From assembly GCA_019115945.1 (NCBI GenBank), contig DXCO01000040.1, forward strand, positions 1-40,757: a stretch of DNA of 40,757 nucleotides, written 5' to 3'. The first letter of the stretch is position 1; every line of letters starts with the position of its first letter. The position numbers and the translations under genes are program-made. The notes beneath the pieces were generated by a model, which worked only from the letters and a program-made list of their open reading frames with translations, did not search any database and was not told the origin of the DNA. This document shows positions 3,601-25,783 of this stretch, piece after piece. The DNA is from Candidatus Borkfalkia excrementavium. GTDB lineage: Bacteria > Bacillota > Clostridia > Christensenellales > Borkfalkiaceae.

Positions 3601-3662
3601 AATAACCTCCGAAAATCCGTATCGACGTAATCGTATTTTCTACCGAATAAGAACACCGAGGA

Positions 3663-4637
3663 TCAAAGATCGAAATCGTCGTAGAAGTCTTCCTCTTTCT
3701 TATCCTTTTCCGGCTGTATGATCTTATCTTTTGCGATAAAATATTTTTTACCCTCGAACATATAATAACTCACGAACTGAATGCAGATGAGCATGAGATA
3801 GGACACGGGCACGGCGAGCAACAGGCCTGCCCCGAACGTAAAGACGCCCGCCACCATATACATGCAGAGAATGATGAGCGAAGTGGCCAAATAGGTGGAA
3901 AACAGTGCGCCGAAACGGCCTTTCAGATGCGAAAAACCTTTTTTGAGCGCGGCAGACAGTTTCAGTTTATCGCTGACGAACGCGGGAACGACTCCGTTGA
4001 ATACGGAAAGTTTTACCGCCTGCGCCACGAGCAAGAGGGTGACGGACAGCATGAGCGCCAGCGCCGACGCGAGCAGCGTGAACGATATGACGTTCAGCAG
4101 CGTCAAGAAGAACAGATAACACAGCACGAGCATCAGCGCGTCATATACAAAGGTAACGGGCACATAGATCAGTTGCCAGAGAGACGCCCTGCCGAGATTT
4201 CTGATGAAGGCGCCCGAAAAGGACGTTTTTGCGTAACTGGACATTTTATCGTCCACAAGGCCGCCGAACACGAAATTTCCGAGCCCGCTCAAAAAGCGAT
4301 AGATCAAGATGACCGCAGCGGCGGCAACGGCAAGCAGCACCCAGTTGGACGTTTTTGCCGCGATGTACGAACCCAGATCGGAAAGCGCGGTTTTCAGACT
4401 TTCGGAAAACCCGTTCAGAAAGACGGTATCTCCCGATACGAGCGCTTTGAAAAAATCTTTGATCAGCCCGATCACATCCCCGAACGGCTCGCTCGAAAAC
4501 AAAAACGCGGCGTTCGGCACCACAAAGGCGGCCGCAAGCCCGACGGAAATCGCCACCACGATGAGTTTATACAATAAATATTTATAGTTGAGCGCAAAGT
4601 TATCTATGAGTAAATGAAACGCATTTTTGAAAATCAT
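3663..4637 (-). CDS. Six-helix integral membrane protein, unknown function
   Basis: No known family is recognised. Hydrophobic segments lie at about residues 21-41, 98-116, 153-183, 187-211, 245-265 and 268-293, followed by a charged cytoplasmic tail ending in an acidic DFYDDFDL. The gene upstream on the same strand (4654-5472) encodes a protein with the same helix layout and a similar helix-loop near residue 220 (SDKLKLSAALKKG here, SNQLSADRKGK there), so the two are probably paralogues forming a hetero-oligomer. The gap between them is 16 bp. GGGGA seven bases before the ATG supports the start. The layout recalls bacterial multi-pass membrane regulators or transport accessory proteins, but no function can be assigned. 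Confidence 0.8.
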   Translation of the reverse strand: MIFKNAFHLLIDNFALNYKYLLYKLIVVAISVGLAAAFVVPNAAFLFSSEPFGDVIGLIKDFFKALVSGDTVFLNGFSESLKTALSDLGSYIAAKTSNWVLLAVAAAAVILIYRFLSGLGNFVFGGLVDDKMSSYAKTSFSGAFIRNLGRASLWQLIYVPVTFVYDALMLVLCYLFFLTLLNVISFTLLASALALMLSVTLLLVAQAVKLSVFNGVVPAFVSDKLKLSAALKKGFSHLKGRFGALFSTYLATSLIILCMYMVAGVFTFGAGLLLAVPVSYLMLICIQFVSYYMFEGKKYFIAKDKIIQPEKDKKEEDFYDDFDL

Positions 4638-4653
4638 CGTATTTTCCCCTCTC

Positions 4654-5472
4654 TCAGAAACGCTTCTTCAGATCTTCGCGCTCTTCTCCGGCCGCGTCAA
4701 AGTATGCGGCGTACATGAGCACGTTGAAATAAAGAAAGAGCAGCAGATAGATCAGTTCTATAATCACAAAAACGGGTACGACAGTTTTGTAAGCGCCGCA
4801 GACCCCCACGGCTGCCAGCACGAGCGCGACGCCCGCAACGAAGGGCAGAAAGACGGAAAGATAAATTTTCCCCTTTCTGTCCGCGCTGAGTTGGTTGGAA
4901 AAGACGAGCGCGTCCAGAAAACTGTATCCCGTAATATGCAGACAGGGCAGCCACAGCATAAAGATGGAAGCGATATACGATAACAGCGCCATCATTCCGA
5001 ACGCGAGCAATAGCGCCGCGATCAACTGCGCGATCCCGTCTAAAATAAGGGAACAGGCATAGATCAGACCGGACGCGAGCACCGCCCAAAGTTCGTAGAC
5101 GCCGACCGCCAGCACGATAAGGATAAACGTGGAGACAAAGTTATAGTTGATCCTTTTTGCGACGCCACGCAGCGAACGGGACCCGATGCGCATGTGCTTT
5201 TCCACGAACGCGAGCAGCATGGGCATAAAGATCGCCGTCAGCGCAAAACTGACCAGCCCGAACTGCCAGCGCGCGGCGTTAAACAGCGAAAATGCGGAAA
5301 AGAGTTGAGAAAAACTCAATTCCGCCCTGCCGTGCAAAATATTGTCGACGATACTCCCGAGTGCATTCAGATCGAGAGACGCCGCAAAAAAATAAGACGG
5401 GAGCAATGCGAACAGGAAAATAAATATAAAGTTTTTGAAGACGTATCTGAACGCGCTTCCGATATATTTCAC
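4654..5472 (-). CDS. Six-helix integral membrane protein, paralogue of the next gene
   Basis: Unrecognised 272-residue membrane protein with hydrophobic segments at about 12-31, 70-90, 112-142, 147-177, 205-226 and 232-256 and a charged C-terminal tail (EEREDLKKRF). The frame stays open upstream to 5688, but a near-consensus promoter lies inside that extension (5503-5531, start of transcription near 5496). The protein must therefore begin downstream, most simply at the GTG at 5472, which gives a normal cytoplasmic N-terminus (KYIGSAFRYVFKNF) before helix 1. No clear ribosome site precedes this GTG, so translation may be weak or the leader unusual. First gene of a likely operon with the gene at 3663 and perhaps pgcA. 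Confidence 0.75.
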   Translation of the reverse strand: MKYIGSAFRYVFKNFIFIFLFALLPSYFFAASLDLNALGSIVDNILHGRAELSFSQLFSAFSLFNAARWQFGLVSFALTAIFMPMLLAFVEKHMRIGSRSLRGVAKRINYNFVSTFILIVLAVGVYELWAVLASGLIYACSLILDGIAQLIAALLLAFGMMALLSYIASIFMLWLPCLHITGYSFLDALVFSNQLSADRKGKIYLSVFLPFVAGVALVLAAVGVCGAYKTVVPVFVIIELIYLLLFLYFNVLMYAAYFDAAGEEREDLKKRF

Positions 5473-5502
5473 CCGACGTACCCGCAACAAATTTTTTCTT
5501 AC

Positions 5503-5531
5503 ATTATATAATAAAAGCGCGTTCTTGTAAA
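5503..5531 (-). promoter_or_regulatory. Sigma-A promoter for the membrane-protein operon
   Basis: Minus strand TTTACA (5526-5531), a 17-base spacer and a consensus TATAAT (5503-5508). The start codon at 5472 lies about 25 bases past the predicted transcription start, which rules out the longer upstream reading of this gene. Confidence 0.8.
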
Positions 5532-5576
5532 GTCTTTCGGATAAAATTTTTGCAAACGCACACATGCAAACGGGCC

Positions 5577-5614
5577 GCAAAACGCCCCTTCCGCCCGTTC
5601 GGACGGAAGGGGCG
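5577..5614 (-). terminator. Second terminator after the phage head module
   Basis: An 11-bp stem CGCCCCTTCCG (5583-5593) pairs with 5604-5614; the minus strand then reads TTTTG. It lies in tandem behind the stronger hairpin at 5643-5684, giving double termination of the module's transcript just before the next promoter. Confidence 0.65.
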
Positions 5615-5642
5615 GCAAATCGCCAAAGCCGCCGCGGCGCAG

Positions 5643-5684
5643 AAAAAAGCATGGGCGATTTCGCGCGAACGCATGCCCATGCTT
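5643..5684 (-). terminator. Terminator at the end of the phage head module
   Basis: Stem GCATGGGC (5649-5656) pairs with GCCCATGC (5675-5682), extended by two A:T pairs, with an 18-base loop. The minus strand then reads TTTTTT. It lies 31 bases after the last gene of the module. Confidence 0.75.
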
Positions 5685-5714
5685 GCATCTTTGCTTTTTG
5701 TATCCTTCAAAAAT

Positions 5715-6179
5715 TCAGGTCATCGTGGCGAGCAGTTCCTGCAAAAACGAATAATAGGTGCCCAGATAATCTTTCGCGACTTCGTCTTCGAGAAAGTCGT
5801 CCAGCGCGGCCTGCGGGTCGTCGTAAGACAGATAATAATTTTTGACCGTGATGTACCGCTCGCGCATGGGCAGCGAATAATCGACCTCGTACGGCGCGTC
5901 CTCGCCGCCCGAGCCCCCTTCGCCCGTCTCCCCCTCCGCGTACAGCGCGTCCAGGCTCTCGTCCAGTTCCCGCTGGATCTTATCCGCGAGCGCGTCGTAT
6001 TCCTTTTTCAGCCTTGCAAGGATATCGGTCAGGATGCCCGAACGCGCCAGCCGCCGCGCCGCGGCGGCATTGGTCTCCTTTACGCACCCCCTCGTATACT
6101 CTTCCTTCGCCGCTGCGCTCTCTCTGTTCGCTTCCTCGATCAGTTTGCGCGCGGCCTCGTCGATCTCTTCCGGCGTCAT
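5715..6179 (-). CDS. Small coiled-coil protein, last gene of the phage head module
   Basis: Unrecognised 154-residue protein. Residues 1-80 are strongly helical, charged and alanine-rich (AARKLIEEANRESAAAKEEY), probably a coiled coil. An acidic glycine-rich linker follows at about 83-93, then a second helical part with aromatic residues. It starts four bases after the preceding stop, with GGGAGG upstream, so it is co-translated with the nozzle-like gene. In P22-like phages the gene after the gp10 nozzle protein encodes the trimeric coiled-coil needle that plugs the portal (gp26). Position and helical character fit that role, but the protein is shorter than P22 gp26 and similarity cannot be shown from sequence alone. 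It could instead be a minor virion or assembly protein. Confidence 0.7.
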   Translation of the reverse strand: MTPEEIDEAARKLIEEANRESAAAKEEYTRGCVKETNAAAARRLARSGILTDILARLKKEYDALADKIQRELDESLDALYAEGETGEGGSGGEDAPYEVDYSLPMRERYITVKNYYLSYDDPQAALDDFLEDEVAKDYLGTYYSFLQELLATMT

Positions 6180-6183
6180 ACCG

Positions 6184-7530
6184 TCAACCTCCCTGTTTCA
6201 ACTTTGAAAACGATGCGGACAGAGAGAAGACCGCGGCGCGGCCTTCCGTTTCAAAAACGAAAACGAACGCACTGCCCCGCAGCGCGGGCCGAATCCTCTT
6301 CATTCTGCCCGTGCCGCACGCGCAAAGACGCCTGCTCCCGAATTCGGACGAAACGGATAGGGAAACGCTCCCCTCCGCGCGCACGCACATCTCTTCGAGC
6401 AGGCATTCCCCGCCCGCAAACGGAAAGAACACGCCGCTTTGCCAATACCCGACCCCCTCCGAAACGGCCTCTCCTTTTTCCGCAACGCAGAAGATCCTGC
6501 CGTCCGAGAGGAAAGCGGCGCGCAGCCCCCTCTCCGTCCTTACAACCGCGGCCGCGTGCGCATCTGCAGGCAGCAGGCACCCGCCCGCGCCGTCCTCGCG
6601 GAAGACGCCGACGGCGGGGCGGACCTCCCCTCCCGTACGGACCAAAAGTGTGAACACAACTTCTCCGCCGCAGGCGGCGGCGCTCGCGCCCGTCTGCGGC
6701 TCATCCGCTAAAAAGCGGGAAAATTCCGGATAAAAGGACTGCGTTTCCCCGTCGTATACGCAGGCGCCCCGATCGGTGAGAAAATATAATTTTCCGTTTT
6801 CCGCGCACGCAGTGCCCGCGTAAATCCTGCCGAAAAAAGAGGGCAGATCTTGCAGGAAAAATTTTTCGGGATCTCCCGGAGCGGAAAGCATCTGCAGGCC
6901 GTATTCGCGCACGATCGCGATCTCTCCGTTGCGGACGAACATCGCGGAGATCTTTCCCTTCGCGTCCGGCAGGTCGAGATGGCCGCCCTCCCCCTCCCGC
7001 TCTTCAAAATCGAAAATATCGAGCGGCGCGGAATAACGCAGCCTGTTCCCGTCCGCCTCGCCCGTCAAAACCCAAAGCCTGTCGTTGCAGAACGCCGCGC
7101 AGGAAAAGGGCGGAACCGCGTCCGTCTCCTCCGCCCCTTCCTCCGTCAGAGAGACCGTCTTTTCGCCGTCCGAAAACAGCATGACTTCCTTCTCTGCGAT
7201 GGCCCGAACGCAGGCGGGCGTCTCGTCAAAATGCGCCGCCGTCTTTTCAAAGGTGCCCGAGCCGCGGACGTAAAGATAACCGTCCTCCGCATATACGGCA
7301 GACAGCCCGTCCGTCTGCCACCAGGCGGCCGCGCGGCATCCTTCGGGAAGGGCAAAGCCCGCGTCTATGTCCGTCAGCGGACAGAAGCCCGCGGAAAAAA
7401 GGCCGCCCGCCTCCGCTTTCAATCCCAAACAGACCTCTGCGCCGCCCTTTTCCCGAATGCCTTCGAGGGAGATCTCTGTCCTCTTTTTGTTTACGGCAAG
7501 GGTCGTGGGCGGCTTGTTCGGCGCCATCAT
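6184..7530 (-). CDS. Probable phage nozzle / DNA-stabilisation protein (P22 gp10-like)
   Basis: About 448 residues of repeating beta-strand segments with many aromatic and Gly-Asp turns (LSDGRIF, YFLTDRGACVYDGET, VREYGLQML). This is the pattern of a beta-propeller, as in tubular tail or nozzle proteins such as P22 gp10 (472 residues). The order portal, scaffold, coat, neck protein, then this gene matches the P22 order gp1, gp8, gp5, gp4, gp10. Three ATGs are possible. The one at 7530 overlaps the preceding stop as ATGA and has GAGG eight bases upstream, so it is preferred over 7536, which is only two bases from the ribosome site. The propeller fold and phage context are convincing; the gp10 equivalence is inferred from gene order. 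Confidence 0.7.
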   Translation of the reverse strand: MMAPNKPPTTLAVNKKRTEISLEGIREKGGAEVCLGLKAEAGGLFSAGFCPLTDIDAGFALPEGCRAAAWWQTDGLSAVYAEDGYLYVRGSGTFEKTAAHFDETPACVRAIAEKEVMLFSDGEKTVSLTEEGAEETDAVPPFSCAAFCNDRLWVLTGEADGNRLRYSAPLDIFDFEEREGEGGHLDLPDAKGKISAMFVRNGEIAIVREYGLQMLSAPGDPEKFFLQDLPSFFGRIYAGTACAENGKLYFLTDRGACVYDGETQSFYPEFSRFLADEPQTGASAAACGGEVVFTLLVRTGGEVRPAVGVFREDGAGGCLLPADAHAAAVVRTERGLRAAFLSDGRIFCVAEKGEAVSEGVGYWQSGVFFPFAGGECLLEEMCVRAEGSVSLSVSSEFGSRRLCACGTGRMKRIRPALRGSAFVFVFETEGRAAVFSLSASFSKLKQGG

Positions 7531-8075
7531 ATCCATTCCCTCCCTTTCAGCGTGAACGACTTGTCCCGCCTCGCGGCGGCGAGAGACTCTTTATAGCGTT
7601 TATCCAACAGCGCGGCGCGTTCGAACATGCCCTCCATCAGGCAAAACTCGCACGCCGCCCCTGCCGCAAGAAAATTTTCCCCGTTCGGAAAATCCGTCTC
7701 GTCGCCGGCGTCTTTCACGAGGGGGCGATAGCGATACCCCACCGTCGCCGCGCAGGAGGGAAAGCGCACGCCCTCTCCGCAGACGGAAAAGGGAAGTTTT
7801 CTGCCCGTGCCGTCTTTGACCCAAAGGATCTCGAGAGGCGGTTTTTCAAAATCCCCGAAGGCCGCCGGCCCGCCCGAGGGGAAGGTCTGCTGCGCCACGA
7901 GGGGCAGGTAATCCGAAGCCGCCTCGTTTTCCGCAAGATTGAAGCACCGCAGCATCGTTTCCGCGTCACGCTGCGCGGCGGACACGTCCGCAACGCGCTT
8001 TCCGCCCAAAAAATCGGCAAGGTCTCCCCGCCCCGCAAGCGCGGCCGCCGTTTCCATAATTTTTCTGACCAACAT
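7527..8075 (-). CDS. Phage head-tail connector (neck) protein
   Basis: A 182-residue protein between the coat gene and the nozzle-like gene. The N-terminal half is helical (VRKIMETAAALAGRGDLADF, then a segment rich in D, E and A that resembles adaptor proteins sitting under the portal). The C-terminal half includes GYRYRPLVKDAGDETDFPNG and a helical end with ALLDKRYKESLAAARR. By position it corresponds to P22 gp4-type or gp6/gp16-type neck proteins. The frame is open upstream to 8273 inside the coat gene, but AAGGAGGG directly before the ATG at 8075 marks the true start. The stop overlaps the next start (ATGA), indicating translational coupling. Assignment rests on context and general character, not on a diagnostic motif. 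Confidence 0.65.
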   Translation of the reverse strand: MLVRKIMETAAALAGRGDLADFLGGKRVADVSAAQRDAETMLRCFNLAENEAASDYLPLVAQQTFPSGGPAAFGDFEKPPLEILWVKDGTGRKLPFSVCGEGVRFPSCAATVGYRYRPLVKDAGDETDFPNGENFLAAGAACEFCLMEGMFERAALLDKRYKESLAAARRDKSFTLKGREWI

Positions 8076-8119
8076 ATTTCCCTCCTTACGGGCGGAGGCA
8101 GAAACCCCCGCCCCGCTTT

Positions 8120-9286
8120 TTACGCCTCGGTGATGCCCGAAAGCATGGCCTGCCCGCACGGCCGCGTGCAGATAAGGTCGGCATATTTGACGAGCGTCGC
8201 CGTATAAAGGGGCTTGCCCGCCACCTGACGGAGGATCCTGCCGTCGTCTCCTTCCAGCCACTTCCAGTCGCACAGTTGGTGCAGGCAGAAATCGGATGTA
8301 TTCAGAAGATACATCGTGCCGTCGGGGCAGAATCTGTCCGCAACGACGGGAATGCCGTTATAGGTGATGGAGCGGTATCCTCCCGCAAGTTTCGTCACGT
8401 CGATATTGCGTTTATTTTCCGAAAGGTGTTTCTGAAGCGCCCGTTTGACGCCCCAACTGCACACGATGAAATCCACACGGCTGCCCGCCGTCTCTTCGAG
8501 GCGGTCGATCGCGGTCTGTATGACCGTCTCGCTGATCGCCCCTACCTTCGTCTTGATATAGGGGATCATCCATTTATGCGTCGCCCTGTCCAGGCCGTAC
8601 AGGCTGCCGGTGGTCTGAAAGATCGCGCCCAGCCCCGTCAGTTCAAGGTTGTACGACCCCTGCACGCACACGGCGTTTCCCGCAGCGATCGCCTCGTCCA
8701 GCGCCGAGCCCGTCACGGTGAACGTCTTGTTGTCCCTGTCCACAGCGGTTATGCGTCTGCCCGCGGCGCCCGCGATCGCGGAACCGTCGTCGAGAAAATC
8801 GACCACCATGCCCTCTATCAGATTTTTTACGCTGTCGGCCGTGACCGTATTGCCGCTCACCGACGAAACGGTGCAGAGCACGCCGCTTCCGTCTCCGAAG
8901 AGCATCCTGCCGAAATTGAAGGAGGACGCCTTGATCAACCCGTCCATTTCCGCATTGAGCAGATTGACGAACGCGCCCACGTTGTTTTCGGAAGCGCGCA
9001 CCGCCTTATCGCTGATCTCTATCGTACCGTACAGGTTTTTGAGAGTCGTTACGAACTGCTCGTAATTGTTGCCGGCGGCAGAAGGGAGATCGCCCTCTTC
9101 CGTGCCCGCACCCACGCCGCCGTTTACGCCGTACTGCGCAAGGCGGCGCACCTCTTTGCCCCACACATCCGCGGTGGACTGTCTGATCTTTGCAAGCAGC
9201 GGGTTCGCCGCCGTATTCAACTGTTCGGAGACCACGCCCAAATATACGCTTTTCAATGCGCTGTCAGCGCTTGCCATCGTTACCAT
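8120..9286 (-). CDS. Phage major coat protein (HK97 fold)
   Basis: A 388-residue major capsid protein. The N-terminal part carries an alpha-helical arm (SALKSVYLGVVSEQLNTAAN) and a loop rich in glycine (YGVNGGVGAGTEEGDLPSA). A central LYGTIEISDKAVRASEN segment follows, then a beta-rich insertion (about 140-215), and the C-terminal P/A-domain part with RVDFIVCSWGVKRALQKHL and GGYRSITYNGIPVVAD. These blocks are typical of HK97-fold coat proteins that lack a fused protease. The absence of a protease gene agrees with scaffold-assisted P22-like assembly. AGGAG thirteen bases before the first ATG suits 9286 better than the second ATG three codons on. It follows the scaffold gene by 42 bp. The gene is complete and shows no damage. 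Confidence 0.9.
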   Translation of the reverse strand: MVTMASADSALKSVYLGVVSEQLNTAANPLLAKIRQSTADVWGKEVRRLAQYGVNGGVGAGTEEGDLPSAAGNNYEQFVTTLKNLYGTIEISDKAVRASENNVGAFVNLLNAEMDGLIKASSFNFGRMLFGDGSGVLCTVSSVSGNTVTADSVKNLIEGMVVDFLDDGSAIAGAAGRRITAVDRDNKTFTVTGSALDEAIAAGNAVCVQGSYNLELTGLGAIFQTTGSLYGLDRATHKWMIPYIKTKVGAISETVIQTAIDRLEETAGSRVDFIVCSWGVKRALQKHLSENKRNIDVTKLAGGYRSITYNGIPVVADRFCPDGTMYLLNTSDFCLHQLCDWKWLEGDDGRILRQVAGKPLYTATLVKYADLICTRPCGQAMLSGITEA

Positions 9287-9328
9287 CTGTTTTTTTATGC
9301 TCCTTTTCCTTTTTGCGCGATCGCGCGC

Positions 9329-9805
9329 TCATTCTTGTTTGCGGAAGATTTCCGCGGCGATCGCCGCCGCGTCTTCCAGCGTCCTCGCCCTGCCGTCCGG
9401 CGCGGAAACGTGCCCCGCGCCGCCCGACATGACGTAGGGCGCATCTCTGCGCACGGAAGCGAGATATTCCGAGATGACCCTGTCGCGGACCTTTTCGGAA
9501 ATCATTTCCTCCGACCGTGTTTCGTTTTCAGATCCCCCGCCCCGCGGGCGGTCGGCCGTTCCGGGCGGCAAAATGTTCTCGCCCGACGCGTCGGCCCCTC
9601 CGTTTTCCGCGGTTTTTCCCTCCAATTCCCGAAGGCGCTGACTGCGGCGGGTGAATTCCGCCTCCAGCGAATTGTACGCGTTCAGAAGGGCATCGACGCT
9701 CTTGAATTTGCCCAAGTCCGCCGCGGGCGCCGCCGCGCCCGATTCCGTGCGGGCATCCGCCCCCTGCGCCGCCTCCCGCGGCGTTGTCATGTTCTCCTTC
9801 TCCAT
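9329..9805 (-). CDS. Phage scaffolding protein
   Basis: A small, very hydrophilic 158-residue protein, rich in A, E, R and G and with little hydrophobic core, lying between portal and coat genes as scaffolds do. The segment LGKFKSVDALLNAYNSLEAE (about 31-50) followed by FTRRSQRLRELEG is the helical block typical of scaffold proteins of Firmicutes phages. A flexible middle part (about 65-100) precedes a helical C-terminus (EKVRDRVISEYLASVRRD, then EDAAAIAAEIFRKQE) that would contact the coat protein. GGAGG just upstream supports the ATG at 9805, 17 bp after the portal stop. It is expected to guide procapsid assembly and leave before DNA packaging. Confidence 0.8.
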   Translation of the reverse strand: MEKENMTTPREAAQGADARTESGAAAPAADLGKFKSVDALLNAYNSLEAEFTRRSQRLRELEGKTAENGGADASGENILPPGTADRPRGGGSENETRSEEMISEKVRDRVISEYLASVRRDAPYVMSGGAGHVSAPDGRARTLEDAAAIAAEIFRKQE

Positions 9806-9822
9806 AAACTCCTCCCGTATCT

Positions 9823-11751
9823 TTATTGATTTTGGCCGCCTTTGCTTTCCGTTCCCGCCGTTCTTTCCCTTTCGGCCGCCCTCCGTTCCGCAAGCAGACG
9901 GTGCTCCTGCAGGTGCCGTTCAAAGCGTTCTTTGACCTTCCCGTCGCAGCCGCGGCACTCGTCGGACAACAGAAAACGCACGTGCGCCTGCATGTGGATC
10001 TGCTCGTCGTCGAATGTATCCGGAGCGACGGGTTCCTTCATAAGCCTCAGATTTTCCTCCGAGGCCTTGTTCGCATGCAACTGTGCGAGCCCGCGGGCAT
10101 TTTCCAGCCCGCCGTAGCCGAGTGCGTTCAGGATGCGGCGTTTGGTTTCGGCAGACGTCTTTCCCTCTTCGTCCGATAAAAGCCCCATCCTGTAAATCTC
10201 GTAGATCAGAGAACGGTTTTCGGACGGGGTGCGCGCGCCATCCGGATCCGCTTCGAACACAACGTCGTCCGAAGAGATGTCGCTGCCGCAAAAATAGATC
10301 ATGTCTACCCTGCCGCCCTCGCCGGCGCAGCGCATCAGCCTCTTCTCCCCCGCAAACTCGCGCATGAGGCGCAGAACGTGTTTTCCCACTTTGCGGACGG
10401 CTCGCCGTATGCTCTCCGTCGTGACGGCGAGCCGCGTATCGTCCAGATCGATGAGCAGTTGCAGCCCGGTCGCGCTCGTCACCTGCGTGCGGTTCTGCGA
10501 AGTGGAACTGATCTCCGAAACGCCGCTCACGAGGATAAATTCGTTGAGCAGGCGCTCTTCCTCCTCGTAAAACTCAGCGGGGATCGAGTCTGCGCCGAGC
10601 AGTTTCGGCGGAGTCGAGCCCTGGCGGTAGACGATCACTCTGCCGGGAGCAAGCCCCTCTTCGGCAAGTTCTTCCGTATCCACGGAGCCGTCCTCTACGG
10701 CGAGCACGCCCATCGTCAGGCGGTTGATAAATTCATGCTTGCGGTTTTTCAGCGCGTTGAACGCGCGCTGCACGGGGATCATTCTGTCCACGATGCTCGC
10801 GCCGAAAAAACTGCCCGAAAGTTCCACCGCGCACTGTTTGACAAAGGGATACGTGCGCGCGCCGCCCTCGCCGTTCGCGTACGGAAGATCCCCGATATAC
10901 GCCAGTTCCTCTCCCGCAACGACAGTCAGCCTGCCCCGCGGCAGACCCGCCGTCGGTTTTTCGTACTTCTCGATCACGATCTCCGCATCCTTCATGCCGC
11001 CCTTCGTCCGCGCGCCGAGCCCGCCGGCAAAATGCATGGAGGAAGAGCGCGGAGAGAGGGAAAATTCTTCGATCTCTCTCCCCTTGACCCGCACGCCGTA
11101 CCGCTCGAAGATCTCTTCGGCGGGCATGGCGCGGGCGTGGATGAGAGAACGGAGATCCTCGACTTCTTCGCACCCGAGATCGTCCGGATAAATTTCGAAC
11201 GGAGACACGCACGCGATGCGCACGCCCCCTTCGTAAACCGCTTCTCCGCCGCTCTCGCCCAGCAGGCGCCCCACGTTTTTGTCCCACAGCACCTTATAAA
11301 AAGAGGTGCCGCACGTTTCGCTCCACACCGTCGCTTTGCTCATCACGTCGCTCAGCGCGTTTTCTTCGCAAACGGAACGAAGAACGGCGGACGCCGTCTT
11401 TGCCGTGCGCAGATCGCTCTCCTGATCGCTCGCCGCGCGGACGGTCAGATCGGGACGCACGCGGGAAAGTTTCGCGCAGCGCGTGTCGATCGCGGGCGCA
11501 ATGTGATTGAACACCCGCCTGTACTGCCAGTAAAATCTGGGTTCCTCCTCCTCGATCTTCCCCGTCGGCCCCACGTCGCAGTACTGGTTGCCCGCAAGAA
11601 AGTTCATGTTCAGTTCCCAGCCCCGTTCGAGCGTCCTGCGCCCGGCGCGGCGCCTTTCGAAGTCCTCTTTCACCTCGCGCACGATGCGTTCGGCAAATTT
11701 TCTGTCATAGCCGCGGGCGTTTTTATCCGCGGCGTTCTCCCTTTTCTCCAT
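9823..11751 (-). CDS. Phage portal protein (P22-like)
   Basis: A 642-residue portal subunit forming the ring through which DNA enters the capsid. The N-terminal block (about 60-135) holds DVGPTGKIEEEEPRFYWQYR, NHIAPAIDTRCAKLSRVRPD and SDQESDLRTAKTASAVLRSV, typical of large P22-type portals. The middle carries the wing and stem region (YPFVKQCAVELSGSFFGASI, VQRAFNALKNRKHEFINRL). The C-terminal part has the clip-like FILVSGVSEISSTSQNRTQV and a long charged tail. The size, larger than the SPP1/HK97 type, also points to the podovirus class. GGAGGAGG precedes the ATG, which overlaps the preceding gene by 29 bases. The gene is intact, with no frameshift or internal stop. Confidence 0.88.
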   Translation of the reverse strand: MEKRENAADKNARGYDRKFAERIVREVKEDFERRRAGRRTLERGWELNMNFLAGNQYCDVGPTGKIEEEEPRFYWQYRRVFNHIAPAIDTRCAKLSRVRPDLTVRAASDQESDLRTAKTASAVLRSVCEENALSDVMSKATVWSETCGTSFYKVLWDKNVGRLLGESGGEAVYEGGVRIACVSPFEIYPDDLGCEEVEDLRSLIHARAMPAEEIFERYGVRVKGREIEEFSLSPRSSSMHFAGGLGARTKGGMKDAEIVIEKYEKPTAGLPRGRLTVVAGEELAYIGDLPYANGEGGARTYPFVKQCAVELSGSFFGASIVDRMIPVQRAFNALKNRKHEFINRLTMGVLAVEDGSVDTEELAEEGLAPGRVIVYRQGSTPPKLLGADSIPAEFYEEEERLLNEFILVSGVSEISSTSQNRTQVTSATGLQLLIDLDDTRLAVTTESIRRAVRKVGKHVLRLMREFAGEKRLMRCAGEGGRVDMIYFCGSDISSDDVVFEADPDGARTPSENRSLIYEIYRMGLLSDEEGKTSAETKRRILNALGYGGLENARGLAQLHANKASEENLRLMKEPVAPDTFDDEQIHMQAHVRFLLSDECRGCDGKVKERFERHLQEHRLLAERRAAERERTAGTESKGGQNQ

Positions 11752-12010
11752 TGTCCTCCTCCACGCTTTTCAATAGATGCAGCAGCCTGTCTTTTTCCCT
11801 TTCCAATTCTTCATCGGTCAACTCCGTAAACGGTTTTTGCGCTTCGACGTACAGTTTTGCCGCCGCGACGTCGGGCGGCACCTGTTTTTTTACGACGCGC
11901 CGCTTGAGGAGCACCTCTTCTCCTTCGTTGAAACTGTATTCTTCCGTCACCTCGTCCGCCTCGAAACCGACGGCGCGGCGGTACAGCGCCCTTCTTATCC
12001 CTTCATCCAC
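11723..12010 (-). CDS. Short terminase small-subunit-like protein (TerS C-terminal half)
   Basis: A 95-residue protein beginning at a GTG with AAGGAGGGG just upstream, overlapping the terL stop by eight bases and the portal start by 29. Residues 5-50 (ALYRRAVGFEADEVTEEY, then LKRRVVKKQVPPDVAAAKLY) match the C-terminal portion common in phage small terminase proteins, where an 'A-x-G-x-x-x-x-E-V' strand leads to a 'K-x-V-P-P-D-x-x-A' helix. The N-terminal DNA-binding helix-turn-helix of those proteins is absent, and the gene sits after terL instead of before it. It may work with an HTH protein encoded elsewhere, such as the ArpU-like protein upstream, or be a reduced connector to the large subunit. 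The family link is by eye only. Confidence 0.6.
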   Translation of the reverse strand: MDEGIRRALYRRAVGFEADEVTEEYSFNEGEEVLLKRRVVKKQVPPDVAAAKLYVEAQKPFTELTDEELEREKDRLLHLLKSVEEDNGEKGERRG

Positions 12011-13442
12011 AGCCCCTCCTTCCGCGCGAAATGCTGCGCATCAGCCTCCTTTTATCCTTCTGCAGATCCGTTTCGGGGCGGGCGGGCGCATCGTTTTTCG
12101 GCTTGGTCATCAGCAGATAACGCAACTCGTCAAGGCTGTGATCCGAAACCTTCCGCGGCACGTCGCCCTCGCCCCAGAAATACCCTTTGAACTCGCGTAT
12201 CATATTGACGCAGTTTGCAAAGATATAGAGGCGCGGACCGCACTTGCCGCTCAGATAACTTTTTACGCGCGCAATGCCCGAAAACAGGTCCTTATCGACG
12301 TTCGTATTGACGAGGATGCCGCGTTCGTAAAAGAGTTCGCTCACGCTTTTCGCGCTCGCCAAAGTCCTTTGGTTCGCGGCGGAATCGATCAGCGCGCGCA
12401 GCCTTCCCTTTTCGTCCGTATGCCAGCCGAGAGCGCGGCTGATCTCTTTGATCTTTTCCGCATGGTAGTCGATGTCCCGCTTAGCCTCGTAGTGTTCTGC
12501 CACGGCGTACACGTTGCCGTCAAAATCCACGCAATACCAGTGCGCGGAGAGCGGGTTGTTGAGCCCCGGGTCGATCGAAATGGTATCCTGCCACTCGAAG
12601 GGTACGGGAAACGGTTCGATCACGTGGATACGTTCGTCAAATTCGGGATACACGAGCCCTTCGTTCACGCAGAAACGGCCGAAGCGCCTGCTTTCGAGTT
12701 CCTTTTCCCCCAGCGCGGCGGTCATTGCGGCGACCTCTTTCGCGGGCAGAAAGGGATTGTCCGCCCACTCCATGAATTCGTACCAGATCTCGGGATCGCC
12801 GCGCTTGTTGAGATAAATCTCGTCGAACAGAAAGGTGACACCTTTCAGGGGCGTCATCGTGCCGAAAATATCGCCGCGCCTGTCCATCACGCGCATGCGG
12901 CATTCTTCGTAAATATCGCGGGGCGGCTCTTCGTCGAACCAGACGAAATCGAGGGAGGCCCCCTGAAACTTTTCCCGACCCTGATCGCAACTTTTGAACC
13001 CGATGACGGATATGCCGCCGAAGGCGTTGCGCACGCTGATCTGGTCGATGATCCCGGACGCGGGAGAATCGCGCCTGCCCGAAAGCATGGTGATCTCCGC
13101 AATGCGGGCGGGATCCAGGTACTGCAGGATCTTTTTCTGCGCGACGTCGCGCTGCACCTGCTGCGAGAGGGAGACCACCCAGCCGAACACGTCTCCTCTG
13201 TTTTTGCGGTACGGATGCTCGCCGAGCGCGATGTAAAGGCACTCGACGGCGCCGCATTCCGTTTTTCCGCTCCTGTTCCCGCCGAATACCCAGCGGTTCC
13301 GCTTTTTGCATTTATGAAAGGCGATCTGCTTTTTGTGTCTCTTTTTGCCGGCGTTGTAGCGCGCAAGGGGGCTTTTGCCCGCGCGGCGCGCCTGTTCCCG
13401 TTCGATCGCGACGATCCCGGCAACGATTTCTTTTTCAAGCAT
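12003..13442 (-). CDS. Terminase large subunit (DNA-packaging ATPase and nuclease)
   Basis: A 479-residue packaging motor. The Walker A motif GGNRSGKT is at residues 54-61, and Walker B LDFVWFDEE at 164-172 includes the catalytic glutamate pair. The coupling-motif region near 190-200 reads DIFGTMTPLKG. The C-terminal RNase H-like nuclease has SIDPGLNN (Asp about 291) and ALIDSAANQ (Asp about 353), followed by the helical SVSELFYERGI. Both activities therefore look intact. The ATG at 13442 has only a distant GGGAGG (about 20 bases away), so the start is less sure than the domains. The gene lies back to back with the plus-strand SH3-like gene (95 bp apart). Confidence 0.93.
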   Translation of the reverse strand: MLEKEIVAGIVAIEREQARRAGKSPLARYNAGKKRHKKQIAFHKCKKRNRWVFGGNRSGKTECGAVECLYIALGEHPYRKNRGDVFGWVVSLSQQVQRDVAQKKILQYLDPARIAEITMLSGRRDSPASGIIDQISVRNAFGGISVIGFKSCDQGREKFQGASLDFVWFDEEPPRDIYEECRMRVMDRRGDIFGTMTPLKGVTFLFDEIYLNKRGDPEIWYEFMEWADNPFLPAKEVAAMTAALGEKELESRRFGRFCVNEGLVYPEFDERIHVIEPFPVPFEWQDTISIDPGLNNPLSAHWYCVDFDGNVYAVAEHYEAKRDIDYHAEKIKEISRALGWHTDEKGRLRALIDSAANQRTLASAKSVSELFYERGILVNTNVDKDLFSGIARVKSYLSGKCGPRLYIFANCVNMIREFKGYFWGEGDVPRKVSDHSLDELRYLLMTKPKNDAPARPETDLQKDKRRLMRSISRGRRGCG

Positions 13443-13477
13443 ATGACAAAATCCGCGAAAATCCTCCCCATTCTCCT

Positions 13478-13506
13478 TTGCGCGGCGCTTCCTTCCGCCG
13501 TATACT
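13478..13506 (+). promoter_or_regulatory. Possible promoter of the SH3-like gene
   Basis: TTGCGC (13478-13483), an exact 17-base spacer and TATACT (13501-13506), 32 bases upstream of the ATG at 13538. The -10 is good and the -35 poor (three of six). Confidence 0.5.
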
Positions 13507-13537
13507 GGTGCCGTTACGAAAAAAGGAGGAATCCGTC

Positions 13538-14239
13538 ATGAAAAAATTTATCCTGTCTGCGGCCCTTCTGCTCGCCGTACTTCCCGCGGCCGCGCTCGCC
13601 GCGGCGAGGCCCGCAAGGGCGGAAGAAGCGCTCTACGCGAAGGTGCTCGAGGAGGGCGTTTATCTGTATTCCTCGGCAGACGAAACGTCGGGGCTCTTTA
13701 TCCTCCCCCGCAGTTATTTCGTGCGCATCGAGAGCGAGGAGGACGAATGGTACCGCGTGCTCTACCGCGAAGGGGATCCGGATATCCCTCCCGTAAGGGG
13801 ATATTGCAAACGCTCGGAGATCACCCCCGTCGACTTCATTCCGCAGACGCCCTATCTCTTTTATCAGATCGACATCACATACCGCGCAGGCAGCGGCGAT
13901 TATCCCGACGGCTTTCTCGACGAATTTACCCTGACCGCCGACTATTTCGGCAAATTTTATTACGGTTCCGAAGTCTCCTACTACATATGTCTGGACGGAC
14001 AGTTCGGCTACGTGCCCTCTTCCGCCTGTCCGGAGCCCGATTATCCCGAAAACATCGAACACACCGAAAGCGGTTCGGGAAACACGTCGCCCGCAAAAAA
14101 GAGCAACGCGATCAATATCGTACTCGTCTGCGCGCTCGCCGTCGCGGCGCTCGGCGCCGTCTACTTTCTTTTCCGGCCGGCCAAGAGCCAGAAAGAGCGG
14201 AAAGCGGACTATTTCGACGATGCGGAAGATCTCTTCTGA
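13538..14239 (+). CDS. Secreted, membrane-anchored SH3-like protein inside the phage module
   Basis: A 233-residue exported protein on the strand opposite to the phage genes. It has a signal peptide (about 1-29, ending AARPARAEE), then a bacterial SH3-like domain (about 30-90: YAKVLEEGVYLYSSADETSG, then DEWYRVLYREGD and VRGYCKRSEI). A second beta domain follows (about 95-160, ending GQFGYVPSSACPEP), then a Ser/Gly linker, one transmembrane helix (about 188-208) and a cytoplasmic tail ending DYFDDAEDLF. AAAGGAGGA precedes the ATG at 13538; a longer reading from 13478 would bury the signal peptide. Its 3' end overlaps the convergent ArpU-like gene by 31 bases. It resembles a cargo ('moron') gene, or a host gene into which phage genes were placed. 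SH3 domains usually bind peptidoglycan or peptides; no target is evident. Confidence 0.8.
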   Translation: MKKFILSAALLLAVLPAAALAAARPARAEEALYAKVLEEGVYLYSSADETSGLFILPRSYFVRIESEEDEWYRVLYREGDPDIPPVRGYCKRSEITPVDFIPQTPYLFYQIDITYRAGSGDYPDGFLDEFTLTADYFGKFYYGSEVSYYICLDGQFGYVPSSACPEPDYPENIEHTESGSGNTSPAKKSNAINIVLVCALAVAALGAVYFLFRPAKSQKERKADYFDDAEDLF

Positions 14240-14748
14240 CGGCGCGCCGCCAGCGCGAGCGTGCTGTGCGCGCGTTTGTCCGAAAACGCCCTTTCCCCCT
14301 CCTCTTTCAGCCTCTCGAGCGCCGCTGTCATCCAAGGAAAATCCGTAAACGCGGAAAAAAATTTTTCGTCCAGCCCGTGCCGGACGAACATGCCGCCCAG
14401 TTTTGCGGACAGCCTCTTCTGCCTGCGGAAATAGGTGCGTTCCGAATGCGGGAATACCGTCCCCGAAAATTCTTTTTCAAGCACTTTTTTTCTTCTGAAA
14501 TACTTATATTCGAGCAAATACCGCTCTTCCTCCGAAAGTTCGGCAAGCATCCCGTCCATTTCGTTTTTCAAAAAAAGCAGTCCCCTTCGCAGATTCAGAT
14601 ACTCGATCAGCCTGCGGATCCCCGCCTCTGTATCCGACCGATCCATGCCCGACGCGACCGCGCGCGCCGTGACGATCTCGGATATGCTGTCTGCCAGTCT
14701 GTCCAGACGGGGATACAAAAACAGCATCACCTTTTGATAATCTTTCAT
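14209..14748 (-). CDS. ArpU-like late-gene regulator (sigma-region-4-like)
   Basis: A 179-residue basic protein at the head of the phage module. The centre (about 70-130) reads MLAELSEEERYLLEYKYFRR, then HSERTYFRRQKRLSAKLGG. This is a sigma-70 region 4-like helix-turn-helix as found in ArpU/DUF1492 proteins that switch on late phage operons and lie just before the terminase genes. The N-terminal part has a helical YPRLDRLADSISEIVTAR segment typical of that group. Two starts are possible: GTG at 14757 or ATG at 14748. An AGGTGA five bases before the ATG favours 14748. The C-terminal 30 residues are basic and overlap the plus-strand gene. It probably activates transcription of the head genes; a terminase small-subunit role is the alternative. 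Confidence 0.65.
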   Translation of the reverse strand: MKDYQKVMLFLYPRLDRLADSISEIVTARAVASGMDRSDTEAGIRRLIEYLNLRRGLLFLKNEMDGMLAELSEEERYLLEYKYFRRKKVLEKEFSGTVFPHSERTYFRRQKRLSAKLGGMFVRHGLDEKFFSAFTDFPWMTAALERLKEEGERAFSDKRAHSTLALAARRQKRSSASSK

Positions 14749-14766
14749 TCCCTTCACCTGCCTTGC

Positions 14767-14806
14767 GCCGCCGACCGTTTCCGCCCGATCGGCGGCTTTT
14801 TATTTT
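14767..14806 (+). terminator. Plus-strand terminator beyond the ArpU-like gene
   Basis: Stem GCCGCCGA (14767-14774) pairs with TCGGCGGC (14789-14796), followed by TTTTTATTTT. It works only on the plus strand. Transcripts of the SH3-like gene would thus run antisense through the whole ArpU-like gene before stopping here. Confidence 0.75.
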
Positions 14807-14904
14807 GAAACCCGACTCTGCCCCGCAAAAAAAGCCGCGCGCCTTTTTTGCCCGCGCCGCAAATTCATTATCGCATACGGCCGCCGCGAAATACAGGATA
14901 ACTG

Positions 14905-14936
14905 CCAAAAATACAAACATATGTTCGTATTTTTGG
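14905..14936. promoter_or_regulatory. 32-bp palindrome with a LexA (SOS) box at its centre
   Basis: Two 16-base arms (14905-14920 and 14921-14936) match at 15 of 16 positions. The core at 14914-14927 reads CAAACATATGTTCG, one base from the Gram-positive LexA/DinR consensus CGAAC-N4-GTTCG. The site lies about 155 bases upstream of the ArpU-like gene and is the only obvious operator before the phage module. The arms extend well past a LexA box, so a second repressor may use the same site. No clear minus-strand -10 box could be fixed beside it. The rest of 14807-15036 shows nothing else. Confidence 0.65.
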
Positions 14937-15036
14937 TATATTTTACCATTTCAAACAGGCATACGCCTGCTTATTTTGCGGCATTTTATAAAATTTTTCA
15001 AAAAATTTCCTTTCGGTCGCAAGATAAAAATTTTTG

Positions 15037-15065
15037 TCGACAAATGTCAAAGAATATGATATAAT
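15037..15065 (+). promoter_or_regulatory. Sigma-A promoter of the 850-residue exported protein
   Basis: TCGACA (15037-15042), a 17-base spacer and consensus TATAAT (15060-15065). The predicted transcription start near 15072 excludes any protein start before that point and supports the ATG at 15136. Confidence 0.75.
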
Positions 15066-15135
15066 GGTTTTACAGTTTATGCGCAAAGAAGCGGCGCGCC
15101 GGCCGGGCCGCAGACGAGCGCAAGGGAAAGCACGT

Positions 15136-17688
15136 ATGAAAAAGGCGATTCTTTCATTTTTAATTTTAACGGCGGTCGTTTGCGGGGCGATGAGCCTGCC
15201 GACCGCGGCCGTACGAGTCGGCGCACAGGAGAGGGCGGACAGCGGAACGTCTCTTCTGACGCCGCAGTACTACGAGGAATATCTTGAACTGGAAAACCCG
15301 TCCGACGTAGCCTTCAACGACGATTACATCGCCGTGGCGGACGGAAACGTCATTTACCTGTACGACCGCGCCGCAGGCACTTATTCGGAAAAGGCGCTCG
15401 AAGAGGGAACCTCCGTTTCCTCGCTCAATTTTTACGGGAACAATCTCTATTTCGTGGCGAAAACGACGGCCTCTTCCCCCATCGTCTATATCGACTGCAC
15501 CGACCCCGCAAAGGAGCAGACGGCGACCGGAATCGGCTCGTGCGCCTCTTTCGTCATCAACGGCGAGACCGTTTATTACTCCATCGTAACGGCGGGCGAG
15601 ATCACCGTTTATTCCTCTCAGATGCAGGACAACGATATCCCCGCCGCATCGGAATCTTTTGCAAGGAGCGACGGCAATACGGTGCCCGCGTTCGCCGTGG
15701 ATGACGGAAGCGTGTATTTTTCGCTCGGCACTTCCGTATACAACGCCGCGGAGCCTTCCAGCGCGATTGCGACACTGACGGATACGGTCGCGGCGTTCGG
15801 CATCGTCAAAGAAGATTCGCAGACGGGCGCTTCTTACAAAATTTATTATTCTTCCACGTCCTCCGACGGGTTCTTCCTCTGGAACGGGTCGGAAAAAAGC
15901 GAGATCAAAGAACACGGCCAAGAGGGCTCGTCCGTCAGGGGCATCAAATCGATCAAGCCCTACGGAGGGGATTTTTACCTCGTTACGGCTACGGCCGTCA
16001 AACGCTATGCGCCGGCCGATAATGCGTTCGACGGCTACGAAATCGGAAAACGGACGCTGACCGATCTTTCGGCGTACGGATCCAGGATCGTCGTGACGGA
16101 CAGGACGGACGGCAGTGCGCTCGTCTATGAAAACGGCGCGGGCAGGCGGGTCCTTCTGCGCAACGGAGACGCCTCTCTGTCCCCCGATTTTGTGTGTGCG
16201 GGAGAGGGTGCTTTTCTCGTCGCTTCGGGCAATGCCTTCTACGTTTTTTCCTACGAAGGAACTGCGGTACGGATCGAAGGCACGGCAGGCGCGCCCATCG
16301 CAGCGGCCTACGCGTACGGAAGTTTTTACGCCGTATCCGATATAGGATCGGGCATTGCAACGTACAAGATCGGAGAAGACGGCACCCTTGCGGAAGAGGG
16401 GCAACTCTTTACGGAACCCGTCGATCTGGCTTCCGATCTGTTCGGAAACCTCTACGCGCTGACCGCGGCGGGAAACGCCTATCGCTTTACCGAAGAAGAA
16501 TTTCTCGGGCAGTCCGTCTCCCACGATCCGGTCGCAGAATTCGGCGCGGGCGCGATTTCGCTGTCCGTAGACTGTATGGGGACGCTGTACGCGCTTACCG
16601 AACGCGCGGTCCTGAAAGCGGAAAACGGTTCTGTCCGTTCCTATCCCCTTTCGTTTGAAGGCTGCGTATATAACGGAGAGACAAAGACCGCCGCCGCGTT
16701 CACTTTCGGATTCGAAGAAGCGGGAGTTTACGTGCTGTCGGACGGCTTCATCATCAAAACGGACGCCCCGCAGACCGCATCCCTCAAAAACCTTGCCGCG
16801 GGGGATACTTACGAACAGATCTTTACGAACGCTCTGACCGAAGAGAGCGTGAAAAATATGACCCTGATCACCCTTCCGGCAGATTCGGTGCTCGTCTCTC
16901 TCGACGGACAGAACATGGAGGGCGACGTTCTCCCCTACAACGGGTACCGCAAGACGGAGACTGAGATGACGGGCGTCGTGCTCGCAGAGACGGAATTCGG
17001 CACCGTAGCGGCTTTTTACGACGGCGGCGATTATGAGATCGCCCTTCTGCCCGAGGGGAATCAGACGGAAACGATCGCATCGGACAAATTTTATACGGAA
17101 AACACTTTCGGCGGATACACGACGAATAAAGTGGGACTGTATCGGTTTACCGCCATGTTTTCCGCAGACACCCCCTACAGGACGGAGTTGAACAAATCGG
17201 CGGGGGTCACGGTACTCGGAGAAGTGCGGCACGATGCTCTCGACGCCGTCTATTACTTCGTGAGCGCGCAGGCGGACGGCGAGACGGTTTACGGATTCGT
17301 GCCCGCAGGATACGTTCTCGAGGGTTCCGCCTGGGGCGGGCCGGACGAAAACGAACCTTTCCGCTACGCGCAGATCGACAAGGGGGAATCGGCAGTTCTC
17401 AACGATCTTACCGCGACCGCCGCAGAGGGAGAAACCCCTACGATCACCCTCCGAAATGAAGAGACCCTGAAAGTCTATTACGAACTGAAAAACGAAGACG
17501 GGCTCGTGTGGGCGGAATATGAAAGGGACGGCGCCGTGGTCGCGGCAGGCTATATCGACGAAAGCATCTTATACCGTGCGGACGATCATGCCATGATCGT
17601 AGTTGCGGTGGTGCTTGTCGTAACGGCCGTCGTGCTCGTGAGCGTGGCTTACCTGCTATTGCGCAAGCAGCCGAAAATCGCAGCATAA
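15136..17688 (+). CDS. Large exported protein, propeller-like repeats with a membrane anchor
   Basis: An 850-residue protein of unknown function. Signal peptide at about 1-35 (MKKAILSFLILTAVVCGAMS). Residues about 45-600 form repeating four-strand segments of the type 'YGNNLYFVAKT', 'DDGSVYFSLGTSVY', 'YGSFYAVSDIGSGIATYKI', 'LFGNLYALTAAGNAYRF', the pattern of beta-propeller blades. Residues about 690-810 form small SH3-like beta domains, one of which ends YGFVPAGYVLEG. One transmembrane helix at about 817-841 and a short KQPKIAA tail anchor it outside the cell. The longer frame from 15034 is excluded by the promoter at 15037-15065. The architecture (signal, beta domain, SH3-like, C-terminal helix) parallels the smaller gene at 13538. 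A strong hairpin ends the transcript right at the stop codon. Confidence 0.8.
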   Translation: MKKAILSFLILTAVVCGAMSLPTAAVRVGAQERADSGTSLLTPQYYEEYLELENPSDVAFNDDYIAVADGNVIYLYDRAAGTYSEKALEEGTSVSSLNFYGNNLYFVAKTTASSPIVYIDCTDPAKEQTATGIGSCASFVINGETVYYSIVTAGEITVYSSQMQDNDIPAASESFARSDGNTVPAFAVDDGSVYFSLGTSVYNAAEPSSAIATLTDTVAAFGIVKEDSQTGASYKIYYSSTSSDGFFLWNGSEKSEIKEHGQEGSSVRGIKSIKPYGGDFYLVTATAVKRYAPADNAFDGYEIGKRTLTDLSAYGSRIVVTDRTDGSALVYENGAGRRVLLRNGDASLSPDFVCAGEGAFLVASGNAFYVFSYEGTAVRIEGTAGAPIAAAYAYGSFYAVSDIGSGIATYKIGEDGTLAEEGQLFTEPVDLASDLFGNLYALTAAGNAYRFTEEEFLGQSVSHDPVAEFGAGAISLSVDCMGTLYALTERAVLKAENGSVRSYPLSFEGCVYNGETKTAAAFTFGFEEAGVYVLSDGFIIKTDAPQTASLKNLAAGDTYEQIFTNALTEESVKNMTLITLPADSVLVSLDGQNMEGDVLPYNGYRKTETEMTGVVLAETEFGTVAAFYDGGDYEIALLPEGNQTETIASDKFYTENTFGGYTTNKVGLYRFTAMFSADTPYRTELNKSAGVTVLGEVRHDALDAVYYFVSAQADGETVYGFVPAGYVLEGSAWGGPDENEPFRYAQIDKGESAVLNDLTATAAEGETPTITLRNEETLKVYYELKNEDGLVWAEYERDGAVVAAGYIDESILYRADDHAMIVVAVVLVVTAVVLVSVAYLLLRKQPKIAA

Positions 17689-24800: not shown

Positions 24801-25280
24801 ATGTCGAATTTATTATCTTTTGATTTTAAAGTCTCCCCTATCTTTCAAGAAAGACTCAGCAAAGCCCTTCTAGGAGAAAACCGTAGTCATCTCGAACTGG
24901 CTAAAGAAATCGGCATAAATAAGGATGTTTTAATAAGGGCACTTAATGCAGGTGTTATCCCTAGTACACGAAGTTTAATAAAACTCGCTGACTTTCCAGG
25001 AGAATCAATTGATTATCTTATCAATTTAACCGATAAAAAAGCATCTGCAAAATCAATAGAAGATTTGACCTTTTGGGACAGACTAACGGAGTTAAAACAA
25101 CTTCATAATATGAAAAATGGAACAATTGCTGCGAAAATAGGGATTTCTCGTAGTTTATTCAATTCTTGGGAAAAAAATAATTATATTCCAACTCTGGAAA
25201 TCGCATATCAACTCGCTAACTGCTTTGAATCTTCAATAGACTATTTACTCGCTAGAACAGATATAAAAAAATATGAATGA
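24801..25280 (+). CDS. Double Xre-type helix-turn-helix protein, array copy 1
   Basis: A 159-residue DNA-binding protein made of two Xre-like HTH domains. Domain A (about 10-75) has HLELAKEIGINKDVLIRALN and ends IDYLINLTD. Domain B (about 85-155) has NGTIAAKIGISRSLFNSWEK and ends IDYLLARTD. The 'D-Y-L-x-x-x-(T/S)-D' ending after each unit is typical of Xre/CI-type repressor domains, so each protein carries two full binding heads. There is no sensor, protease or other domain. It is the first of five similar genes in tandem, all AT-rich compared with the flanks. GGAGAG is about 15 bases upstream. An operator-like repeat precedes it. Likely an autoregulating DNA-binding protein; the target is inferred only from position. 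Confidence 0.85.
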   Translation: MSNLLSFDFKVSPIFQERLSKALLGENRSHLELAKEIGINKDVLIRALNAGVIPSTRSLIKLADFPGESIDYLINLTDKKASAKSIEDLTFWDRLTELKQLHNMKNGTIAAKIGISRSLFNSWEKNNYIPTLEIAYQLANCFESSIDYLLARTDIKKYE

Positions 25281-25286
25281 TTAATT

Positions 25287-25772: not shown

Positions 25773-25783
25773 GGAATTTAAAA

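Follow-up and report, generated by a model that had tools for sequence, protein, structure and literature searches.

To our knowledge, few gene transfer agents (GTAs) are known outside the Alphaproteobacteria; RcGTA is a long-tailed GTA, regulated differently from the cluster described here. This cluster is a compact phage head module at positions 5715 to 14936 of a 40,757-nucleotide stretch of DNA (the window) from Candidatus Borkfalkia excrementavium, whose genus is placed within Christensenellales in the NCBI taxonomy. The window comes from contig C35 in assembly G000 (1.55 Mb in 42 contigs, 90% complete). As read from its genes and those of its relatives, the module is most likely an ancient, probably SOS-controlled, podovirus-type GTA cluster. 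The definition of a GTA, as far as the accessible text of PMC9662315 gives it, has six features: proteins derived from caudoviricetes, packaging of mostly random host DNA, full endogenization, an own genome that cannot be packaged in full, vertical inheritance, and delivery to other cells. Three of these, the phage-derived proteins, the endogenized genes and the vertical inheritance, are seen in the cluster.

The nearest described system, likened to the cluster by description alone and not by sequence, is FpGTA of Faecalibacterium, reported in 2026 as the first GTA in a human gut commensal. According to the accessible parts of that report (PMC12946183), FpGTA is near-ubiquitous in its genus and forms particles of ~40 nm containing 8.4-8.9 kb of DNA. 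It resembles the Borkfalkia cluster in being podovirus-like, in its Clostridia host, in having no replication genes reported in those parts, and in an operon with large terminase (TerL), portal, scaffold, major capsid protein (MCP) and a possible small terminase (TerS) without obvious DNA-binding domain. It differs in that it is described from one genus and has a second operon for baseplate, fibre and lysis proteins. The cluster, in contrast, is found in 14 sampled families within one order. Ahead of its helix-turn-helix (HTH) regulator is a LexA-type box, a membrane gene lies on the opposite strand, and in many relatives holins are encoded within it. The same report counts GTA-like packaging in Christensenellaceae in 3 of 25 events, the genes not being named in the parts available. 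A 16S probe found no Faecalibacterium among the 391 genomes of the class sample used here. Two other GTAs can be set against the cluster by their descriptions alone, in the accessible text of PMC9662315. RcGTA (Rhodogtaviriformidae) is likewise inherited vertically with its host, and BhGTA/VSH-1 of Brachyspira has likewise co-diversified with its host genus. The latter differs in its 65 nm flexible tail and is not podovirus-like.

The MCP gene gives the distribution of the cluster. One match each was found in 142 of the 151 family genomes, in 98 of the 103 of better quality and in all 18 sampled genera ("family" and "order" are groupings of the genome search tool). It is this single match per genome, together with conserved neighbouring genes, that marks the cluster as endogenized. 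Among the 142 family matches one, in G007, has an internal stop and a few are partial. For the order, family included, 173 of 297 genomes have an MCP match, and 63 of 125 genera are represented. Two to four matches occur in a few of these genomes, and two of the matches listed contain a stop. When the class sample was searched with the MCP profile, 14 of the 19 order genomes and 12 of the 372 others had a match. Of 13 loci taken from those 12 genomes none showed the full cluster, but some of these loci are short contigs. Among the best 80 named MCP relatives, five are titled Candidatus Borkfalkia (79-87% identity) and many are uncultured Clostridia. A further 57 loci came from IMG/VR, mostly contigs <17 kb that carry the same cluster. 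Searches of a PMC collection, which lacks most subscription papers and bioRxiv, gave no published report of the cluster among the results listed. Passages of one paper on clostridia (PMC10538166) deal with prophages of the tailocin type in solventogenic species.

Variants of the MCP gene have also been observed. In two genomes of genus g8, G007 (locus L255) and G053, it has shrunk to ~50 residues. The G007 copy is a decayed remnant; in L255 TerL is partial and the portal was not found. Tandem MCP pairs occur in L139 (G238), L225 and L231.

Inheritance was followed in 30 genomes of 14 families by comparing a tree of the concatenated portal, MCP, nozzle and adaptor with a tree of RpoB, whose frames were chosen by homology. 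(RpoB was sought in 32 genomes; G041, with no RpoB match, and G220, with no locus, were left out.) The two trees have 16 of 27 splits in common, while 1000 label shuffles gave a mean of 0.22 and a maximum of 4. Of 17 RpoB nodes with support >=0.95, 15 recur in the module tree, and one supported module node, the placement of G006, conflicts with RpoB. The module and RpoB distances correlate at 0.58, compared with at most 0.27 in 1000 permutations. For single genes the correlations with RpoB were 0.62 for TerL (11 of 24 splits, 27 genomes), 0.54 for MCP (14 of 27 splits) and 0.52 for portal (14 splits). The cluster is vertically inherited and has co-diversified with its host, as a GTA does.

Selection on the genes was estimated as the ratio of nonsynonymous to synonymous changes (dN/dS) in 32 loci treated as the window's genus by similarity (Nei-Gojobori medians over pairs with dS < 1.5); the values are rough because synonymous sites are near saturation. 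Medians were 0.15 for TerL, 0.17 for MCP, 0.25 for portal and 0.28 for the TerS-like gene, then 0.36 for adaptor, 0.42 for regulator and 0.45 for scaffold. A neighbouring phosphoglucomutase, used as host control, gave 0.10. Purifying selection acts on TerL, MCP and portal.

These results make it highly improbable that the cluster is an ordinary prophage remnant or the trace of repeated independent infection by related prophages. Such an origin would account for head genes that are phage-derived and for the losses and decay seen in places, such as the G007 remnant. It would also suit L248, a locus outside the order where an MCP relative has genes for a replicative helicase, a replication initiation protein and a phage TerS as neighbours, and which therefore looks like a phage state. 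It was rejected on the family-wide MCP, with a single copy per family genome, on the co-divergence with RpoB over 14 families, on the dN/dS values that indicate purifying selection, and on the conserved neighbours and opposite-strand gene. A normal prophage with integrase or tail genes did not appear in the flanks of relatives, which were not scanned systematically for either.

The genes of the module lie on the minus strand of the window in the order HTH regulator, TerL, TerS-like protein, portal, scaffold, MCP, adaptor, nozzle and coiled-coil protein. This order is common to loci of 14 families. Relatives were compared in two sets. The named set consists of the 37 of the 80 named relatives that span the module (from 7 kb before the MCP to 5 kb after it); more than one family is represented, since L103 belongs to another family (it is the same locus as L137). 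The other-family set has 20 loci from 13 families. TerL, portal, MCP and nozzle are each one open frame of >=70% model length in 35 of 37 named and 15 of 20 other-family loci. Portal, MCP, adaptor and nozzle reach >=80% of model length in all 37 named loci, and the scaffold, which is variable, does so in 21. All seven core genes were detected in 16 other-family loci; the four incomplete ones are L126 and L140, cut by a contig end, and L137 and L138, without TerL in place. The opposite-strand membrane gene is present in 31 named and 14 other-family loci, and the regulator in 30 named loci.

An earlier note on this DNA had described an intact, P22-like head module that the cell may keep for making DNA-filled particles or a domesticated capsid, with induction by DNA damage. 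That proposal is supported by conservation, intact genes, purifying selection and an SOS-type box. The TerL, portal, scaffold, coat, neck, nozzle and coiled-coil genes that it listed are indeed closely packed, open minus-strand frames, scaffold and adaptor (its neck) being assigned by position. Of the checks it had proposed, a search for the gene set in related genomes and dN/dS gave the values above, and the premature stops in most relatives that it had named as contrary evidence were not seen: the four core frames are open in nearly all named loci. Some of its gene labels did not survive, nor did its double terminators (19 terminator-like sites compared with 18.3 +/- 4.8 in shuffles, which is chance level), nor the absence of lysis genes as a general rule.

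TerL (12003..13442, minus strand; phrog_2, 7.2e-29) was said to have complete ATPase and nuclease residues, and these (K60, D170, E171, D291, D353, D434 and D438) are identical in 72 of 72 aligned TerL proteins. Between TerL and portal lies a TerS-like gene (11723..12010, minus strand; phrog_309, 4.6e-9), and 16 of 20 relatives of its product also match phrog_309, a TerS profile. The window protein aligns to positions 198-263 of the 319 in that profile, the C-terminal stretch alone, and as judged from this coverage it is a TerS-like protein without visible DNA-binding domain. In some relatives (L106 at 3555-6917, L107 from 2432 onward) the TerL and TerS-like genes are separated by one for a protein of ~1,120 residues, secreted-looking by eye.

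The particle, if made, would be of the podovirus type. The portal (9823..11751, minus strand) matches the P22-type family PF16510 at 1.8e-18. The next gene, on the same strand, encodes a scaffold-like protein (9329..9805), recognized by position and composition, with no PHROG or Pfam family match. The nozzle (6184..7536, minus strand) was identified by a structure model with a mean predicted local distance difference test score (pLDDT) of 77. Foldseek matched this model to the podovirus nozzles of Pa223, Pan3, VP1, GP4, SU10 and P22 at E values from 1.7e-15 (Pa223) through 5.5e-12 (SU10) to 4.7e-11 (a P22 tail-complex chain); unrelated beta-propellers rank after them with weaker E values. The particle, if made, is therefore expected to be short-tailed. 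Both the portal family and the nozzle fold are thus held in common with P22/SU10-like podoviruses. The MCP (8120..9286, minus strand) matches phrog_14242 at 2.8e-66; as to a P22-type coat, SU10_MCP matched below cut-off, and the MCP profile gave one match among PDB sequences, at chance level. Related MCPs were found in 13 of 50,697 phage records at 25-30% identity (best 30%), including phages of Arthrobacter, Microbacterium and Cellulosimicrobium; the cluster differs from these in that no phage replication genes were seen with it. The head-tail adaptor-like protein (7527..8075, minus strand) is assigned by position alone, neither the window frame nor that of one relative having a PHROG match. 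The last gene (5715..6179, minus strand) encodes a coiled-coil protein related to, but shorter than, the DUF7934 protein seen in other loci, with its own Pfam match below cut-off.

The first gene (14209..14757, minus strand) had been labelled a TerS-like fragment. It encodes instead an HTH transcription regulator of RinA/ArpU/sigma-like type, with a GTG start and a possible alternative ATG start at 14748. Of 19 relatives compared with profiles, phrog_36 (transcriptional regulator) was matched by 12, a sigma-factor family by 8 and a transcriptional-activator family by 7, and an HTH region is seen in the alignment. The AlphaFold2 model is all-helical (pLDDT 87); no PDB fold matched it at E <= 0.001. 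Upstream of the GTG start by 170 bp is a LexA/SOS-type operator, CGAACATATGTTTG (14914..14927, sequence on the minus strand), in agreement with the SOS-type control proposed earlier.

Similar boxes occur in relatives. The consensus CGAAC-N4-GTTCG was sought in the 300 bp upstream of the regulator, in the 55 loci where both are available: 33 have a box with no more than one mismatch and 44 with no more than two, compared with 0.5% and 5.9% in shuffles. For the named loci plus window the counts are 31 and 41 of 44. The sole other exact copy of the 14-mer in G000 is ~50 bp upstream of what we take to be a radical-SAM DNA repair gene. Of 41 family genomes, 35 have a LexA DNA-binding domain that scores above the cut-off. 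Ten lexA genes were read from 12 loci, and five have an upstream box with at most two mismatches, two more with three. With a LexA-type box before its first gene, to which LexA would bind, the cluster probably belongs to the LexA/SOS regulon. Because the opposite-strand membrane gene separates the regulator from TerL, it is a natural inference that the regulator acts in trans on a TerL promoter; no clean motif emerged when a conserved promoter element was sought ahead of TerL. The product of the separating gene (13538..14239, plus strand) is a membrane-anchored protein of 233 residues with, as judged by eye, a signal peptide, a C-terminal transmembrane helix and an SH3-like look, and with no Pfam match over cut-off.

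We consider it likely that the cluster is what remains of a phage, domesticated and passed on vertically, and that it now works as a GTA. DNA damage would relieve LexA repression of the regulator gene, and the regulator would then turn on a separately transcribed operon running from TerL to the coiled-coil gene. MCP, scaffold, portal, adaptor and nozzle, whose genes are intact, could assemble into a capsid, which TerL and a TerS-like protein lacking a DNA-binding domain would fill with non-selected cell DNA. Lysis would free the short-tailed particle, through holins in many relatives and by unspecified means in this genus, and the particle would deliver its DNA to kin.

A holin (BhlA-type or Phage_holin_1) follows the nozzle in 14 of 20 other-family loci and is present in 9 of 37 named loci; several loci also have a receptor-binding-like protein after the nozzle, judged by position and a coiled-coil start. 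The window's genus has a reduced version of the cluster without holin and receptor-binding-like genes. The holin profiles PF10960 and PF04531 gave 0 matches in G000 (1 genome) and in 11 genus genomes, respectively, so that the stated absence of lysis genes holds for this genus with the profiles tried and fails for the relatives.

A domesticated capsid without gene transfer is a less favoured explanation, and a rather doubtful one. Such a capsid would be SOS-induced and package cell DNA, serving as a killing particle, a decoy or an altruistic-death device. The model is PBSX of Bacillus subtilis, which is also SOS-linked, also packages host DNA and also has a Gram-positive host, and which injects no DNA and acts as a tailocin. 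The cluster differs from PBSX in encoding a short-tail nozzle. The SOS-type box would suit this explanation, as would the failure to find a receptor-binding-like gene or holin in the genus. Against it, the intact TerL residues, the TerS-like gene and a path from portal to nozzle fit packaging and delivery, and other relatives keep a receptor-binding-like gene. For FpGTA the same question is left open by its authors in the parts of the report available (PMC12946183).

A capsid-forming phage satellite (cf-PICI-like) that borrows the tails of a helper phage is extremely unlikely. It would explain why this genus has head genes with few tail genes. Integrase and mobility are features of such satellites. 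The window has 134 open reading frames (ORFs) of >=80 residues, and among the 30 scanned with Pfam there was no integrase, as the earlier note had held, and no phage replication gene. The satellite was rejected on this result and on vertical inheritance; the cluster also has its own nozzle, and holins lie beside it in many relatives.

Several observations weigh against the GTA reading. The particle, the packaged DNA and the transfer are inferred from the genes of the cluster, which is therefore called a GTA-like element here and falls short of a proven GTA. With no holin or receptor-binding-like gene in the genus cluster, release and attachment are unexplained. An MCP match is lacking in 124 of the 297 order genomes, and some have 2-4. 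Single-gene trees agree less well with RpoB than the concatenated one, among them nozzle (r 0.18, 9 of 27 splits) and adaptor (r 0.50, 7 of 27), and the median dN/dS of the nozzle is 0.59. The regulator was detected in just 12 of 20 other-family loci, where the box is also weak (2 of 11 at no more than one mismatch, 3 of 11 at no more than two). Boxes turn up as well in the 300-bp stretches 5' of other cluster genes (TerL, portal, MCP, adaptor, nozzle and coiled-coil gene), in 6 of 494 and 56 of 494 at these two thresholds. Half of the ten lexA genes have no box with two or fewer mismatches, and in G000, at 90% completeness, the LexA match was sub-threshold and TIGR00498 gave none.

The MCP gene may also serve as a target for other elements. 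In six IMG/VR contigs (L204, L223, L229, L236, L239 and L240) the MCP match ends at residue 378/379 and is followed by similar end sequence; L204 and L229 apparently have the same island. Restriction-modification ORFs (C5 methylase, McrBC, HsdM/R/S and ResIII-Mrr families) were found behind or around the MCP end among the ORFs scanned in L223, L229, L236, L239 and L240, and in L240 a large serine recombinase gene is <2 kb from a separate copy of the MCP 3' end. This arrangement suggests that integrative islands use the MCP 3' end as insertion site. A TniQ test of whether the islands are Tn7-like was negative in all 10 records and genomes. Four genomes, G009, G042 and G145 of genus g10 and also G400, have an MCP match that ends at residue 375-381, <=60 bases from a contig end, as if a repeated insert there had broken the assembly.

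The cluster is conserved over many families of an order whose named members were obtained from animal guts, so a large group of gut bacteria may have inherited capsid-mediated gene exchange, possibly with DNA damage, for instance from some antibiotics, as its trigger. We give about even chances to the broader proposal that podovirus-type, DNA-damage-triggered gene transfer belongs to the ancestral core traits of a large uncultured gut Clostridia clade and predates the divergence of at least 14 families, with an MCP gene so constant that mobile restriction islands insert at its 3' end. The cluster also offers a defined gene set for asking why cells keep GTAs.

Where window genes flanking the module have family matches, these are mostly metabolic. 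Directly beyond the coiled-coil gene are two minus-strand genes for polytopic membrane proteins. TM1 (4654..5688) adjoins the cluster in 13 of 37 named loci and also in two loci of the other-family set that have no holin; TM2 (3663..4637) adjoins it in 19 of 37 named loci. On the other side, a plus-strand ORF (15034-17688) encodes a long surface-type protein with a C-terminal transmembrane helix by eye, relatives of which adjoin the cluster in 23 of 37 named and 0 of 20 other-family loci. Further away, at 24801-26284, are three neighbouring plus-strand genes for HTH_3-domain proteins, in an AT-rich part of the window (36-40% GC at 24-27 kb).

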